64,000 nt of DNA. It comes from Stanieria cyanosphaera PCC 7437. GTDB lineage: Bacteria; Cyanobacteriota; Cyanobacteriia; Cyanobacteriales; Xenococcaceae. Below are positions 31,707 through 38,121 of the stretch, in pieces. Both the position numbers and the translations under genes were made by a program. Where the stretch lies: assembly GCF_000317575.1 (NCBI RefSeq), contig NC_019748.1, forward strand, positions 2,124,001-2,188,000, in the 5' to 3' direction. Numbering within the stretch: the first letter of the stretch is position 1; the number at the start of each line of letters is the position of its first letter. The notes under the pieces were generated by a model, which saw only the letters and a program-made list of their open reading frames with translations, searched no databases and was not told the origin of the DNA.

Positions 31707-32108
31707 TTACCTGCTTCTTTTCTGATTCCGAACATATTCTTTGATTTTCTCTAAAGGTGCGCCTCCAGTTGTACAAACAAAATAACTATTAGTCCACAAC
31801 GTAGGCAACCTTTGAGTTAAATGCGGGAATTCTTGTCTAAGATACCTCGAAGTTGCTCCTTTGAATCTTTTAACTGCTCGATGCACTCCATACTGTGGGT
31901 CTAGAGATATGGCTAGATGGACATGGTTCATTTCCCCTACTTCCATCTCTAGTATTTCGACTTTAATTTCTTTTGCTATTTGAGTTAAAAGTTCTTTTAG
32001 TGGTATTTGTATTTCCTCAGTTAGTACTGGACGGCGATATTTAGTAACCCAAACTACGTGGTAATTACAGCAAAATACTATATTTTTATTGGTTTTGTAC
32101 TCAACCAT
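31707..32108 (-). CDS. tnpA: TnpA, IS200/IS605-family Y1 HUH transposase
   Basis: This 133-residue single-strand transposase excises and inserts the element by relaxase-like chemistry. The HUH motif is MNHVHLAIS (H62, H64) and the catalytic tyrosine is Y125 in LEKIKEYVRNQ. The N-terminus HVVWVTKYRRPVL and the segment RFKGATSRYLRQEFP are typical. The length is normal, with no frameshift. It is transcribed away from tnpB from a 34-base region that contains a symmetric promoter-like inverted repeat. The -10-like box lies 4 bases from the start codon, so the message may be leaderless. Confidence 0.95.
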   Translation of the reverse strand: MVEYKTNKNIVFCCNYHVVWVTKYRRPVLTEEIQIPLKELLTQIAKEIKVEILEMEVGEMNHVHLAISLDPQYGVHRAVKRFKGATSRYLRQEFPHLTQRLPTLWTNSYFVCTTGGAPLEKIKEYVRNQKRSR

Positions 32109-32110
32109 TG

Positions 32111-32137
32111 TATTATACAGATGCTTGCTGTATAATC
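32111..32137. promoter_or_regulatory. Symmetric divergent promoter of tnpA and tnpB
   Basis: The arms ATTATACAG (32112-32120) and CTGTATAAT (32128-32136) are exact inverted repeats around 7 bases. Each arm contains a perfect TATAAT -10 box pointing to its own gene. TTGTAT at 32108-32113 lies 17 bases upstream of the rightward -10 box. The boxes sit 4 and 6 bases from the start codons, implying leaderless messages. The palindrome could also be an operator. Confidence 0.5.
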
Positions 32138-32142
32138 ATACC

Positions 32143-33345
32143 ATGCCTAATTACTTTGTTCGCAAACTAAAACTAGAAAAAACTCCACAACTAGATTCTT
32201 TGGCTCGTGCTGCTGGTGAATTATATTCTCGTACTTTAGTTTCCTTCTGGCGCACGGTACGTAAAAAAGATATCTGGTTGTCGGGTTACATCATGGAAAG
32301 ATGGCACACATCTTCTTCTCTCCATGCTCATAGTTCGGATGCAGTAACTCAATCTTTCTATGGTTCGCTCAAGTCATGGAGGACTAGAAGAAAGACCGAC
32401 CCTCATAGCAAACCCCCAAAGAGAAGGCGTTGGTACTTCAAGGTTACTTGGAAGAAGGCAGCTATTAAATTAAAAAACGGCAAGTTGTTTTTATCCAACG
32501 GTAGGGGTAATAAGTCTCTGGTAGTAGATTGGCGTTGGAAAAAACCTAAGACGGTTGAGTTGGGTTGGAATAAAGCATCGCAGTGCTATGAGCTTAGAGC
32601 TTGTTATTCCGACACAATACCCAATACTGGCGAAGCTAAAGGGGTTGCTGCTGCGGACTTAGGGGAAATTCACCCTATGGTAATCGCGGACGGAGTTAAC
32701 ACCGACATATTCAATGGGAGGTATTTACGCTCTGTTCGTCGCTATCAAAACAAAGTTAAAGGTAAATTAGCTAAATTAATCGATAAAAAGAAGCGAGGTA
32801 GCAAACGCAGGAAAAGACTGATTAGAAGTAAACAAAAACAACTAGCAAAATTCAACAATCAGATTAAAGATATCGAGCATAAACTAACTAGTCGTGCTGT
32901 TTCAATGCTGAAATTAAGGGGCATTCAAACACTAGTAATAGGAGATGTGCGAGATATAAGAGACGATTTGGACGATGGAAAAAAGAATAACCAGAAACTG
33001 CATCAATGGAGTTTCGGTTCTATCAGGCACAAGCTGGAATACAAGTGCGCGAGAGCAGGTATAAAGACGACTTTAATAACGGAAGAATACACAAGTCAAG
33101 AGTGCTTATGCTGTAGGACTAGAAACAAGCCCAAGAAACGTAACTACTTATGCAATAGCTGCCATGCAAAGTTTCACCGCGACCAAGTCGGCTCGAACAA
33201 TATACGTGCAAAGTACCTGGGGGAAGTCCCAGTAGTTGGAATTATGGCTGTTCCCTCTGGAGTGCGTTACCATTCGCATCTTCAGTGTAACCTAAGCGAA
33301 GCAATTCTGTTAGGGAATCCCCTAGCTTCTAGCTATGGGGAGTAG
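32143..33345 (+). CDS. tnpB: TnpB, RNA-guided nuclease (IS605 OrfB) with relocated RuvC glutamate
   Basis: From the ATG at 32143 the product has 400 residues. The basic N-terminal part precedes a RuvC nuclease: D172 in VAAADLGEIHP and D347 in KFHRDQVGSNNIRA. The zinc finger is CLCC...CNSC (321-340). At the usual RuvC-II site IxxEDL this protein reads LVIGDVRDI, with Gly267 in place of glutamate. A glutamate instead precedes the YTSQ motif (LITEEYTSQEC, E315), as in TnpB and Fanzor groups with a rearranged active site. TnpB proteins cut DNA guided by an RNA from the element end and help keep the element in place. The frame is intact. Confidence 0.92.
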   Translation: MPNYFVRKLKLEKTPQLDSLARAAGELYSRTLVSFWRTVRKKDIWLSGYIMERWHTSSSLHAHSSDAVTQSFYGSLKSWRTRRKTDPHSKPPKRRRWYFKVTWKKAAIKLKNGKLFLSNGRGNKSLVVDWRWKKPKTVELGWNKASQCYELRACYSDTIPNTGEAKGVAAADLGEIHPMVIADGVNTDIFNGRYLRSVRRYQNKVKGKLAKLIDKKKRGSKRRKRLIRSKQKQLAKFNNQIKDIEHKLTSRAVSMLKLRGIQTLVIGDVRDIRDDLDDGKKNNQKLHQWSFGSIRHKLEYKCARAGIKTTLITEEYTSQECLCCRTRNKPKKRNYLCNSCHAKFHRDQVGSNNIRAKYLGEVPVVGIMAVPSGVRYHSHLQCNLSEAILLGNPLASSYGE

Positions 33346-33539: not shown

Positions 33540-33995
33540 CTAGTTATTAAAAACATCTTTGATGCTATCAACAGTACGTTCAACAATATTTTTAGTATCG
33601 TCTACAGCTTTCTGAGTTCTAGCTGCATCTTCTTCTGCTCTTTGTTCAATTCGAGATGCATCTCTCTTAGCCTTGCGCTCAACAAAGCTACCATTATCTG
33701 TTGCATCATCGACCTTAGCTGCATTTTTCTTAGCAGTTTGCTCTACTTTATCTGCTGTATCTCGGATAAAATTCTTGGCTCGTCCAGCATCTTCACTAGT
33801 CTTATCTTTGACTTGATCACCTGCATCTTTGGTGGCAATCAAATTGTCAATAGGATTAGCCATTGCTACTGGGTTTGAGTAAAATCCACCTTGCCAAACT
33901 AAAGCGATCGCTATTAAACAAAATAAAGTTGTAGCTATCCAGCGTTTTACAGTTGAAAGTCCTTTCATAAAATAATTTAGTGTCATAGAAGACAA
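33540..33995 (-). CDS. Exported LEA/apolipoprotein-like hydrophilic protein
   Basis: This 151-residue protein has an N-terminal hydrophobic signal or anchor (about 17-40, RWIATTLFCLIAIALVWQGG). The rest is an entirely hydrophilic, alanine-, lysine- and aspartate-rich helix with 11-residue-like periodicity (DKVEQTAKKNAAKVDDATD, RKAKRDASRIEQRAEEDAAR). It ends VERTVDSIKDVFNN. The composition resembles late-embryogenesis-abundant proteins that protect membranes or proteins during drying. I do not recognise a named family. The in-frame ATG at 33968 is an alternative start. A terminator-like hairpin follows the stop. Confidence 0.65.
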   Translation of the reverse strand: MSSMTLNYFMKGLSTVKRWIATTLFCLIAIALVWQGGFYSNPVAMANPIDNLIATKDAGDQVKDKTSEDAGRAKNFIRDTADKVEQTAKKNAAKVDDATDNGSFVERKAKRDASRIEQRAEEDAARTQKAVDDTKNIVERTVDSIKDVFNN

Positions 33996-34100: not shown

Positions 34101-35159
34101 TTAAATTTCTGGAGTTTCGTTGATTATTCCCCGAGACTGCAATAAACGCTTTCTTTTTTGACGAGCAATTTCTTGTAAATCGACACTGCGATCAGTTTCA
34201 TCGACAATTTCACCAGTCAATACTTCTAAAACATCTTCTAAAGTTACTACACCAGCAACACCGCCATATTCATCTAAAACTACAGCTAAATGTTCTCTAG
34301 TTTCTTGAAAAACTTTGAGTAACTTATCCGCTCTAATTGTTTCTGGAACAAAACGAACTTGACGTGATAAACTTGCGATCGCTTGTTCTTGGTTTCCTTC
34401 AATCATTGCAGTTAGTAATTCATCTTTTAATACCAAACCAATTACATTATCAATTGAACTTTCAATGACTAAAATACGAGTGTGTTGAGATTCAATAATG
34501 TCTTGTTTACATTCAGCTAAAGTTAAACCACCTTTTAAAAAGGTAATAATAATTCTCGGGGTCATTAAATCTGCTGCGGTTAAATCATTTAACTGAAAAA
34601 CTCGTTGAATCATCTCTGCTTCATCATCTTCGATAACTCCTTCTTGATAACCAATTCTAGTTAAAAATTTAATTTCTGCCTCATTAGTTGTAGGAAGAAC
34701 TCTTCCTTTGGTAAAAGGTGCGGTAATATGCTCAACTAACCAAACTAAAGGAGTAAATACAATTGTGATAAATTTAACAGGAATAGCAATCAATAAAGAA
34801 ATATTTGTCGAATAACGTTCCCCTACAGTTTTAGGAATAATTTCCCCAAAAATAATAATTAAAAAAGTTAAAATTCCAGAAAATAAACCTAACCAGGCAT
34901 CACCTAAAGCATCTGCTGCTAAAGAACCAATTAAAATACTACCAACAATATTAAAAATATTATTTAAGATAACAATTGTACCAATTGGTCGATTAATTCG
35001 ATTACGAATTCCGAGAAGAGCTAATGCTGCTGGTTTTTTTGACTGAGCAAGTTGCCGAACTCTAATTAAAGGAACAGACAAAATTGCAGCTTCTGAAGCG
35101 GAACAAATTGCCGAACCAGAAATAACTATCACAACCGCAATAATAAGAGTAATAAGCAT
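34101..35159 (-). CDS. CNNM/CorC-family transporter or hemolysin-like membrane protein (DUF21 + CBS pair)
   Basis: This 352-residue protein has an N-terminal CNNM/DUF21 membrane domain with about four helices (SGSAICSASEAAILSVPLIR; IGTIVILNNIFNIVGS; IIIFGEIIPKTVGERYS). Two CBS domains follow (about 205-330), with DLMTPRIIITFLKGGLTL and HLAVVLDEYGGVAGVVTLED. Members of this family are linked to magnesium or other divalent-cation homeostasis. The C-terminal CorC/HlyC domain is missing, so this is a short form. It lies 10 bases downstream of the fusion protein gene and is surely co-transcribed with it. Confidence 0.87.
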   Translation of the reverse strand: MLITLIIAVVIVISGSAICSASEAAILSVPLIRVRQLAQSKKPAALALLGIRNRINRPIGTIVILNNIFNIVGSILIGSLAADALGDAWLGLFSGILTFLIIIFGEIIPKTVGERYSTNISLLIAIPVKFITIVFTPLVWLVEHITAPFTKGRVLPTTNEAEIKFLTRIGYQEGVIEDDEAEMIQRVFQLNDLTAADLMTPRIIITFLKGGLTLAECKQDIIESQHTRILVIESSIDNVIGLVLKDELLTAMIEGNQEQAIASLSRQVRFVPETIRADKLLKVFQETREHLAVVLDEYGGVAGVVTLEDVLEVLTGEIVDETDRSVDLQEIARQKRKRLLQSRGIINETPEI

Positions 35160-35169
35160 ATAAATTGAT

Positions 35170-38121
35170 TTAACTTATAATTTCAACGATTCCTGTATAA
35201 CCATTGATTCTAACTCGCTGACCGGTTTGTAAAAGTTGAGTAGCATGAGGAATATCCATCACTGCGGGAATCTTATATTCACGAGCAATAATCGCACCGT
35301 GAGAAAGACGACCTCCAACTTCAGCAATTAACCCTCCTACACGAGCAAGTACTGGTGACCAACCAGCATCAGTATACGGTACTACCAAAATGGTTTGTTT
35401 ATCTACATCAATATTGCTATTGAGACTAGATAAAACTTTAATGTATCCTTCAATTTCTCCTCCACTACCACCAATTCCTTTAAATCTTGGTCGCTCAAGA
35501 GAAGAAAGGGAAAAATTATTCAAAACGGTAGAGTCTGGATAGCCGTAGACTAAATAAGGTATCTGGTTTAATTCTCGCTCTTGTTGCCATTTTTGTTGTC
35601 TTTGTTCAATCAATTTGAACAATTGTTGATGAGCATCTGAAGATGGTTCTTGAATAAAAGAAATAATTTCGTCAAATTTCAAAAAAAAGATGCTTTCTGG
35701 GGTTAAGAGTTTACCTTCTCTAAGCCAAATTTGTTCTAATGCTAAAAAACTCCAACGCAAATGAGCAAGTAATTTATTGTAAATTTCACTAGAGTGATTT
35801 TTGAGATTTAATCTTTTTTGAACTGATTTAGTTAACCAAGATTTGGATGTTTTGTGGTTTAAAGATTGAGCTTGTTTTCTTTTTTCAGCATCGAAGAAAA
35901 ATTGAGTAAAAATTTCTCGGATCGGACGAGGATTTTCTCGCCAACGAGGAACAGCAATATCAGTAGCAACTTCACTCAAGTAACCATATTTTTCTAACCA
36001 TTGCTCAAATCTAGTTAAGATGCTTTCTCCTTCAGGATTTTCTGCAATTTGAACAAACAGGGAAGCACAAGAATTTAAAGTGATTTTTTCAGCAGCTAAT
36101 AACTTACGAGTATCGGCAGCTAAACAAGCAAGAGTTCGCATCGACTCTAATTCTGGGGTTTGACGATGATTCAAACTAGTTTCTGAGATTTGGAAGGTTG
36201 CTTGTCTGATTGCAAAACTGAGGGGAGCAAGAATACTATAATAAGTAGCCTGGTCAAGGGCTGCTAGTATCTTGTTAATGCGTTCTAAAATGTCTTGAGC
36301 AGATAAATCTTTCGCTGGAGTTGTTTCTAACTCTCTGAGAGTAGGCAGAAAAATTTGTTTGCGATCGCGTTGAAAGTCTTTAGCTAAGTTTAATTCTCGT
36401 TGTAGTAATCGCCATAATCCAGGAATATTTTTAATAGTAGATTGTAGTGGTGGTTTGGTAAAAGATTCTCCTCTCGTCAAAAATTCTAAGCTTTCGGGTG
36501 GTAAACCCATGCGCAGAAAAATTGTTCCCAATAAAGTAACGTTAAAGTAAGCACGGGAAAAATGCAGGGTAGCAGTTTGATTGAAGTCTAAATCTCGAAC
36601 TGATTTTTGACCTAAAACTAAGGTAAATAATTTTCCCCACACGCCACAAGTAAGAGGTTGATTGATTGACCAAGTTAAAGGGCGAATTACTCCTGGAATT
36701 ACTTCTGCAGCAATTTTTCTCGTCCAAATCGGTTGAAGAGTTGTGATTGGACGTACTTGCAACAACCAAATTTTTTCGCCATCATAAGTCCATTCTAAGT
36801 CTTGAGGAATACCTTGAAACAATTCTTCCATTTCTTGAGCAAGTAAAGCTACCGATTCCAAAATTTCTGTGGGAATAGTTTGCTCTGTGGAACTAGTTGA
36901 ATTTTCGTGAATAATCTTAATTGAACTATGATTTCTATCTTTATCGATTACCGATAAAGATAAGTCTGGCATGATCACACGATATCTATAAGGAGTCACC
37001 TTACCCGAAACTACTTGAGTTGCATCTCCTGGTAAAACTTCGATCGCAACTCCCTCATTGACACTATCAACAGGATCGCGACTAAAAGCAACTCCTGAAT
37101 AAATACCTTCGATCTGTTTTTGAATTAATACCCCAAGCGAGCGCTCCTGCTGCTGACGAGTACGACGATACTCTCTAGCAGTCGACTCTAAATAAGATAC
37201 TTGACAATCAAGGATGGCAGTTTTGAGCATTTCTCTATTAGTAATATTCAGAATACTCAGATATTGCCCTGCTGCCGAATCGCTTTGAGTATCTTCTCCT
37301 ATGGCTGAAGATCTTACTACCAAAGGTTGTTGAACCGATGGCTCTAAATATTTAACAATTTGATTAGGATCATCTCCAGGAAAAAGTACCCAACCATCAG
37401 GAACAGAATAACCAAGTTTTTTCAGTAAAGCTAAATTAGCAGCTTTCTGTCCTATTTGAGTAGCATCGAGTTGAACATCTAAAGATTTAAGATTTTTATC
37501 ACCGCGAAAGAAACGGAACATGGTTTGTGAATTACTAGTTGCTTGAGTTGCAGATAAATCGAGATCATCAGGTATTTGCTGATAAATCCAGGCGAGTAAA
37601 GTAGATAAAGCCAAAGTTGTGATGCCATATTCTGGTTGTTCTGGATGACGCAGAGCAATAATGATAGTTAACAGAACTAAGACACTATATTTAGCCGTTG
37701 AGCGATTACGATTAATTGTAAAACTGACTCCAGAAATAAAGAAAATTAATCCTGCTGCGATCGCATCATGAACAACTATTCCCCACACTACATTAGTAGT
37801 TCCTGCTCCTTTACTTAACCAATAACGTCCCATCACTAAAGCAATTAAGGCAATTATTTCCCAAACTGAATTAACGGGAAAAAACATCCTTGAGAGTAAA
37901 ATCGCCACAATTCCTTTCGCTGCCTCGGATAAAACCGCCAGTATCCCTGCTAAAGTGCCACCGTGATAAAAGGCTGCTGACACTGACACATTTCCCGTTC
38001 CCAATTTTGTTAATTGACGACCGGTTAAAGCGTAAGTAAGCCAATCGATTAGGGGTAATCCTCCTAACAGAGGACAAATGATAAAAATGGCTAAAGAACC
38101 CCAAACTTGTACGAGCGTCAT
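35170..38121 (-). CDS. Fusion of a PlsY-like membrane domain with a PEP synthase-like protein
   Basis: This 983-residue protein joins two families. Residues 1-190 form a membrane domain like glycerol-3-phosphate acyltransferase PlsY, with KLGTGNVSVSAAFYHGG in place of the GSGNPGATN block. In the second block (MGRYWLSKGAGTTNVVWG) the usual histidine is lost. Residues 215-460 are a PEP/pyruvate-binding ATP-grasp domain (PLVVRSSAIGEDTQSDSAAG, ending DLEWTYDGEKIWLLQVRPIT). A long helical middle leads to the PEP-utilising swivelling domain (890-983) with the phosphohistidine in GGRLSHGAIIAREY (H941). The pyruvate-binding C-terminal barrel of true PEP synthase is absent. It leads a two-gene unit with the CNNM protein. 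Confidence 0.85.
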   Translation of the reverse strand: MTLVQVWGSLAIFIICPLLGGLPLIDWLTYALTGRQLTKLGTGNVSVSAAFYHGGTLAGILAVLSEAAKGIVAILLSRMFFPVNSVWEIIALIALVMGRYWLSKGAGTTNVVWGIVVHDAIAAGLIFFISGVSFTINRNRSTAKYSVLVLLTIIIALRHPEQPEYGITTLALSTLLAWIYQQIPDDLDLSATQATSNSQTMFRFFRGDKNLKSLDVQLDATQIGQKAANLALLKKLGYSVPDGWVLFPGDDPNQIVKYLEPSVQQPLVVRSSAIGEDTQSDSAAGQYLSILNITNREMLKTAILDCQVSYLESTAREYRRTRQQQERSLGVLIQKQIEGIYSGVAFSRDPVDSVNEGVAIEVLPGDATQVVSGKVTPYRYRVIMPDLSLSVIDKDRNHSSIKIIHENSTSSTEQTIPTEILESVALLAQEMEELFQGIPQDLEWTYDGEKIWLLQVRPITTLQPIWTRKIAAEVIPGVIRPLTWSINQPLTCGVWGKLFTLVLGQKSVRDLDFNQTATLHFSRAYFNVTLLGTIFLRMGLPPESLEFLTRGESFTKPPLQSTIKNIPGLWRLLQRELNLAKDFQRDRKQIFLPTLRELETTPAKDLSAQDILERINKILAALDQATYYSILAPLSFAIRQATFQISETSLNHRQTPELESMRTLACLAADTRKLLAAEKITLNSCASLFVQIAENPEGESILTRFEQWLEKYGYLSEVATDIAVPRWRENPRPIREIFTQFFFDAEKRKQAQSLNHKTSKSWLTKSVQKRLNLKNHSSEIYNKLLAHLRWSFLALEQIWLREGKLLTPESIFFLKFDEIISFIQEPSSDAHQQLFKLIEQRQQKWQQERELNQIPYLVYGYPDSTVLNNFSLSSLERPRFKGIGGSGGEIEGYIKVLSSLNSNIDVDKQTILVVPYTDAGWSPVLARVGGLIAEVGGRLSHGAIIAREYKIPAVMDIPHATQLLQTGQRVRINGYTGIVEIIS

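Follow-up and report, generated by a model that had tools for sequence, protein, structure and literature searches.

Dikinase-type chemistry acts on hydrophobic small molecules in the prodiginine ligases PigC and RedH. In the rifampin phosphotransferases (RPH) and the small-molecule dikinases like them (PMC4844700; PDB 5HV1, 5FBS), an ATP-grasp domain is followed by a helical central domain and a C-terminal swivel domain with the catalytic His. PlsY, the acyl-phosphate:glycerol-3-phosphate acyltransferase (PF02660; PDB 5XJ5-5XJ8; PMC5700162), is a membrane enzyme that forms lysophosphatidic acid out of acyl-phosphate. Here we describe a gene of the cyanobacterium Stanieria cyanosphaera PCC 7437 that joins these two types. 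It lies in a 64,000-nucleotide stretch (contig NC_019748.1, positions 2,124,001 to 2,188,000), henceforth the window, whose numbering is used throughout. A minus-strand open reading frame (ORF) of 983 codons at 35170-38121 encodes a 983-residue protein, henceforth the fusion, in which a predicted PlsY-fold membrane domain precedes an RPH-type dikinase. Both halves are known enzyme types, and their combination is what is new. No report of a PlsY-dikinase fusion was recognised in the literature searched, where coverage was thin for subscription journals. We give an even chance to the fusion being a membrane-embedded small-molecule dikinase that acts on a hydrophobic, lipid-like substrate.

The fusion has the RPH domains in the same order and retains the RPH ATP-site residues and His. 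Unlike RPH, it possesses an N-terminal membrane domain of 190 residues, Lys-Gly/Asn in place of an Arg-Glu pair, and a central-domain signature of its own (IWTRKIAAEVIPGxIxPLTWSINRPLTCGVWG). It shares ATP-grasp and phosphohistidine domains with phosphoenolpyruvate (PEP) synthase and pyruvate phosphate dikinase, but no PEP/pyruvate barrel was found in a Pfam scan and its His domain is C-terminal. It has the same predicted membrane fold as PlsY, from which it differs in that the glycerol-3-phosphate (G3P) pocket and motif 3 are replaced, His92 is exchanged for Arg, a loop is shortened and a dikinase is attached. Dikinase-type domains also occur in PigC, RedH and HpeHI (PMC12167813), where they are used on hydrophobic small molecules, but these proteins have no PlsY domain. 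The NCBIfam models of PigC and RedH scored 197.7 and 180.5 bits against the fusion, far under their cut-offs of 1300 and 1350. By architecture and ATP-site residues, the fusion belongs to the broad group of RPH-type small-molecule dikinases.

Domain architecture and predicted fold

Three Pfam families matched the 983-residue protein (E up to 1). These were G3P_acyltransf (PF02660) at residues 15-179 (60.2 bits against a cut-off of 24.1), PPDK_N at residues 264-463 (141.8 bits) and PEP-utilizers at residues 907-977 (74.1 bits). A PEP/pyruvate-binding TIM barrel was not among them, and nothing follows the swivel domain. The first-pass annotation, a reading of this DNA from its letters alone, had proposed a PlsY-type membrane domain fused to an ATP-grasp/phosphohistidine module of the PEP synthase family, and had counted the missing barrel among the signs of a new enzyme or sensor. 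It did not give the strand, which is minus. The fusion was borne out by the Pfam matches and the fold comparisons below, and the barrel is indeed missing. However, the module is a small-molecule dikinase of the RPH type and not a truncated PEP synthase, and the missing barrel is not peculiar to it, since RPH-type dikinases are described as lacking it too (PMC4844700). Solved RPH structures were the best solved relatives, matching residues 263-737 and 796-982. The score against NCBIfam RIF_Ptrans_rph (203 bits) was under the cut-off of 999, so the fusion is not a rifampin phosphotransferase proper. A highly conserved block occupies residues 465-551 of the central domain.

A full-length AlphaFold2 model was built from an alignment of 20 sequences (mean predicted local distance difference test score, pLDDT, 71.3; predicted template modelling score, pTM, 0.44). 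Foldseek matched it to RPH 5hv1 (E 1.7e-25, 919 columns) and its N-terminal part to PlsY 5xj7 (template modelling score 0.73 by target length). VIA-align 2 gave Z 22.4 to 5hv1 with a root-mean-square deviation (rmsd) of 26.6 over 595, hence a domain-by-domain match only, and Z 16.7 to 5xj7. The relative placement of the domains is not to be read from this model. When the membrane domain was modelled alone (residues 1-206, pLDDT 90.5), it matched 5xj7 with Z 18.1 (rmsd 2.9, 179 residues), and the next unrelated chain reached Z 4.5. The PlsY fold, whose presence in the first 190 residues the first-pass annotation had made its refuting test, was thus found, and the N-terminal domain is predicted to have the PlsY membrane fold. 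What links the domain to PlsY is its Pfam match, a profile alignment and the structural comparisons, not sequence searching against the PDB, in which the membrane domain alone returned one chance match only (E 1.8).

Active sites of the two halves

The S. cyanosphaera genome also encodes a separate, stand-alone PlsY, which scored 174.3 bits, while the fusion domain reached 64.9. For a profile alignment of fusions to stand-alone PlsY proteins, 29 of 32 loci passed a motif filter, and fusions L096, L097, L052, L088 and L091 were excluded (loci and genomes are designated by L and G numbers). The two profiles aligned with a probability of 96.6. Motif 1 aligned with that of PlsY without gaps, and the glycine-rich loop was recognisable. 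Five PlsY residues had different counterparts in the fusion: Ser35 was represented by T42, Thr41 by S48, Arg45 by Y52, His92 by R99 and His177 by Y180. The IRHxxN stretch of PlsY was replaced by WIYQQIPDD, with Asn180 beyond the aligned range, and Lys104 aligned with T108 in a shortened loop, where the register is uncertain. In the published description of PlsY, Ser35, Arg45, Lys104 and Asn180 clamp the phosphate of G3P, Ser142 and His177 hold its 2-OH, and the side chains of Thr41 and His92 hold the acyl-phosphate; the S35T mutant keeps 17% of activity and R45K under 10% (PMC5700162).

Conservation was counted in a table of 96 fusions, an extension of a 57-member table. ORFs of 880 residues or more made up the latter, and 850 or more sufficed for added loci. 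The larger table excludes L191 (split over contigs), L090 (two frames), L087, L098, L056 and L058, and also L010-L038, most of whose genomes were re-fetched with longer flanks. A few fusion genomes of the survey described below (e.g. G153 and G112) are therefore outside it. R99 was present in all 96 members, E66 in 94, F51, N110 and W113 in 93 each, G107 in 92, N44, G105 and T109 in 91 each and T42 in 90. Less strictly kept were H53 (87), K69 (86) and S48 (74). The two altered motifs reported in the first-pass annotation, GTGNVSVSA and MGRYWLSKGAG (the latter at residues 97-107), were confirmed, and it is in this altered form that they are conserved. Judged from the alignments, the G3P pocket of PlsY is largely replaced by another conserved set of residues, and the PlsY half is rebuilt, not decayed.

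Two near-complete genomes of the same order, G046 and G058, had the fusion and PlsX, and a stand-alone PlsY was not found in either (loci L136-L138). In G046 the two flanks of the plsY region of a genome from the same genus lay about 1 Mb apart, with the plsY segment missing. This gap may reflect lineage loss, rearrangement or an assembly fault.

In the dikinase half, the ATP site was conserved. R270, E361, E443 and R457 were present in all 96 members, K226 in 93 and the predicted phosphohistidine His941 in 92. R270 aligned with Arg117 of RPH, and K226 with the Lys of VGGK. In RPH, resistance is abolished when Lys22 or Arg117 is changed, and His825 serves as the catalytic His (PMC4844700). The same work describes an Arg-Glu pair as critical to the second phosphotransfer and reports that even clade Q, which sits at the far edge of its tree, retains this pair.

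This Arg-Glu pair of the central domain, and the Lys (block 9) of RPH-type dikinases, are not kept in the fusion. Position 774 was Lys in 92 of the 96 members, in place of the RPH Arg, and position 775 was Gly in 77, Asn in 10, Ala in 4, Ser in 3 and Glu in 2, so that the Glu needed by RPH for the second phosphotransfer was missing in 94. In 16 of 18 soluble relatives the same columns held Arg-Glu (L213 had Arg-Gly and L205 a gap). A profile-profile alignment with these 18 relatives (probability 100, 749 columns) gave the same Arg-Glu register. A smaller, earlier alignment placed the register two residues further on, and there too the fusions shown had no Glu after the basic residue. Since the catalytic Arg-Glu of RPH is Lys-Gly/Asn in the fusion, the acceptor chemistry has probably changed. 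One way to read the loss of Glu would be that the acceptor, for instance a carboxylate, does not have to be deprotonated.

Four of the 96 members (L096, L097, L195 and L184) had Gln at the position of His941, and all four deviated at 5-12 of 13 PlsY-motif sites. Among the 92 members that keep the His, L091 alone had five or more such deviations; in L052 three sites were scored as deviating because its first 50 residues are missing. In the tree, the sisters L184 and L091 fell inside a clade of 36, of which the remaining 34 all have the His, and L096, L097 and L195 formed a separate long branch. This placement on two branches indicates two independent losses of His941. The joint loss of His941 and the PlsY motifs suggests that the two sites take part in one joint reaction, though with so few events behind it the association is a hint and no proof. 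The four apparent pseudoenzymes are still kept as long open frames.

Possible reactions and alternative explanations

Were the fusion a membrane-embedded dikinase, its ATP-grasp domain would pass a phosphate of ATP to His941, yielding AMP and inorganic phosphate. The swivel domain would then ferry the His941 phosphate to the acceptor site, where a hydrophobic, lipid-like acceptor would receive it. The PlsY-fold domain would be more than an anchor and would bind the lipid partner, either the acceptor or the lipid phosphate formed, in the acyl-phosphate pocket. We infer the activity, its direction and the lipid nature of the substrate. A new membrane-bound phosphotransfer enzyme, as already proposed in the first-pass annotation, is the best reading of these sequences. 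It could take two concrete forms, a lipid-alcohol kinase or an acyl-phosphate synthase with acyl transfer.

As a kinase of lipid or isoprenoid alcohols, the dikinase would phosphorylate a hydroxyl of a membrane lipid such as polyprenol, phytol or diacylglycerol. This form is possible and is put forward tentatively. The membrane pocket would suit a lipid alcohol, and RPH relatives are described as phosphorylating hydrophobic hydroxyls, in rifampin (PMC4844700) and in hydroxyphenylethanones (PMC12167813). However, the fusion has lost the acceptor-site Glu of RPH, and DgkA turned up in each of the 65 cyanobacterial genomes tested, whether or not they carried the fusion, giving no sign that the fusion replaces it. 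A complementary distribution of the fusion and DgkA was thus rejected.

In the second form, which we hold to be rather unlikely, acyl-phosphate synthase and acyltransferase would be combined in one chain: the dikinase would turn a free fatty acid into acyl-phosphate, and the PlsY-fold domain would transfer the acyl group to a molecule that is not G3P. Two side chains of the PlsY acyl-phosphate site have similar counterparts (Ser in 74 and Thr in 5 of 96 members at S48; R99 in all 96) while the G3P pocket is changed, and a carboxylate acceptor would require no general base, which would fit the loss of the RPH Glu. DegV/FakB, a fatty acid kinase subunit family, was absent from all 65 cyanobacterial genomes tested. 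Since it is absent with or without the fusion, this offers no contrast and no specific link. Residue 48 is Ala in 12 of the 96 members, nothing points directly to fatty acids, and cyanobacteria recycle fatty acids via acyl-ACP synthetase. The narrower proposal that the fusion is a one-chain counterpart of FakAB plus PlsY, converting a fatty acid to acyl-phosphate and then, on a new acceptor, to a non-standard acylated lipid, is in our view unlikely.

Several observations weigh against a membrane-embedded dikinase with a lipid-like substrate. Residues 461-531, the best conserved part of the central domain, were poorly modelled (pLDDT below 50), and together with the pTM of 0.44 this means that the reach of His941 to the membrane pocket is not readable from the model. 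The counterpart of PlsY Lys104 is unsettled, being T108 by profile alignment, and K104 of the fusion is poorly kept (among the 57 members, Lys in 36, Arg in 15, Gln in 4 and Gly in 2). The Ala variants of S48 count here as well. With its acceptor site altered, the second half-reaction cannot be a plain copy of that of RPH. The four members lacking His941 lie on long branches and all drift at central sites, and three of them also deviate strongly at several ATP-grasp sites. General decay in fast-evolving members, not specific coupling, could therefore be the cause of the joint loss. L091 keeps the His despite a drifted motif 1. L087, in which the ATP-grasp domain and the swivel His are kept without the central domain and motif 1 is changed, is readable either way. 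Finally, the search of the neighbourhoods of fusion loci found no conserved gene on the same transcript that would point to a pathway.

If the PlsY-fold domain were a mere membrane anchor, the dikinase would act on a soluble substrate. Attaching a membrane domain may serve only to place an enzyme, and the L090 gene reads as two adjacent frames that part at the linker. The altered pocket motifs are nevertheless strongly conserved and are broken in members without His941, and we consider an anchor quite improbable. A membrane sensor or signalling phosphotransfer protein, the other function suggested in the first-pass annotation, is very unlikely: a phosphohistidine domain beside a membrane domain that binds a ligand might conceivably signal, but the Pfam scan found no output or receiver domain, a conserved neighbour was not found, and the full small-molecule central domain is kept. 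Least probable of all is a working G3P acyltransferase with a regulatory kinase tail, for which only the missing PlsY of G046 and G058 speaks, explicable as above, whereas the PlsY G3P pocket (Ser35, Arg45, Lys104, Asn180, Ser142, His177) is not kept and the G046 fusion (L099) also has S48A in motif 1.

Distribution, genomic context and significance

Of 291 genomes sampled from the phylum, 85 carried the fusion (a hand count of the table that includes the window genome), all in the window's class. This recurrence rules out a chance fusion and an assembly error, the latter named in the first-pass annotation as a possible refutation. Some match was obtained in 135 of the 291 genomes, many being merely weak matches to other dikinases. 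The 85 include four without the catalytic His and a few in which the fusion is read in two pieces. Among those listed, the genomes of family f25 and all four of genus g6 gave weak matches at most. In a scan of named genomes, made with patterns from this protein alone, 21 loci were detected, all with cyanobacterial titles and 50-69% identity; the 291-genome survey covers one phylum. At 18 of the 21 loci the fusion occupied one long frame. The others were L052 (a long frame without the first 50 residues), L056 (three frames) and L058 (cut by the contig end). In one scan of viral contigs the only match was weak and partial (34%, 119 residues), and no plasmid record covered 80% of the protein in one place.

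Two loci had unusual gene structures. L087 (7329-9104, minus strand) encodes a 591-residue second copy with membrane, ATP-grasp and swivel domains and no central domain; its genome, G164, also has a normal fusion copy about 370 kb away. At L090 (7718-10710, plus strand), two adjacent frames of 186 and 809 residues are separated at the linker that follows the membrane domain, which may be a true split or a frameshift.

A CNNM/CBS protein begins 10 bases past the fusion stop codon on the same strand, as the first-pass annotation had noted, but CNNM is not a general partner. It was directly downstream in 6 of 62 loci (the window, L040, L041, L042, L054 and L060), a set in which L058 ends within the gene and L087 and L098 are not full fusions. 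All six fall within the clade of seven that holds the window. The seventh member, L039, is the nearest named full-length relative and had no CNNM in the 526 bases downstream. At L070 a distant CNNM relative was found several kb away. A fusion-CNNM operon as a functional unit was thus rejected outside the nearest clade.

In seven loci (L045, L046, L047, L076, L077, L078 and L080) a homologous gene lies divergently upstream, outside the fusion transcript. The one representative scanned, from L080, matched Lipase_GDSL_2 and is GDSL-lipase-like. In the window, a 151-residue protein is encoded downstream of the CNNM gene on the same strand (33540-33995, minus). It is charged and rich in Ala, has a hydrophobic stretch at its N terminus and matched no Pfam family (E up to 1). 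At 31707-33345, two divergent frames with a slight overlap resemble TnpA and TnpB of the IS200/IS605 type, as judged by eye.

Table 1. Features of the fusion gene and its downstream neighbour in the window.
Feature	Position	Strand	Basis
Fusion gene, 983 residues, predicted PlsY-fold membrane domain and RPH-type dikinase	35170..38121	-	ORF, Pfam, full-length model
Predicted PlsY-fold membrane domain, residues 1-189	37555..38121	-	PF02660 at 15-179; model of residues 1-206, Z 18.1 to 5xj7
Altered PlsY motif 1 GTGNVSVSA, residues 41-49	37975..38001	-	Sequence; profile alignment to stand-alone PlsY
Altered PlsY loop MGRYWLSKGAGTTN, residues 97-110, R99 at the PlsY His92 position	37792..37833	-	Sequence, alignment, conservation
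ATP-grasp domain, residues 208-463	36733..37500	-	PPDK_N match; structural alignment from 208
Central domain, residues about 464-889, equivalent of the RIF-binding domain of RPH	35455..36732	-	Structure and alignment
Phosphohistidine swivel domain, Pfam range residues 907-977	35191..35403	-	Pfam, structural alignment
Predicted phosphohistidine His941 codon (GGRLSH)	35299..35301	-	Alignment, conservation
CNNM/CBS protein	34101..35159	-	Directly downstream of the fusion; Pfam; neighbour in near relatives only

The fusion is widespread in cyanobacteria, conserved over much of the window's class and apparently unstudied. An automatic annotation that relies on Pfam or NCBIfam would point to the names "glycerol-3-phosphate acyltransferase" or "PEP synthase", and neither fits. 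We know of no earlier case in which the PlsY fold serves anything besides G3P acylation. If the fusion is a membrane-embedded dikinase as proposed, its rebuilt and conserved PlsY pocket would be the first use of this fold beyond that reaction, and the enzyme would extend phosphohistidine chemistry to lipids.

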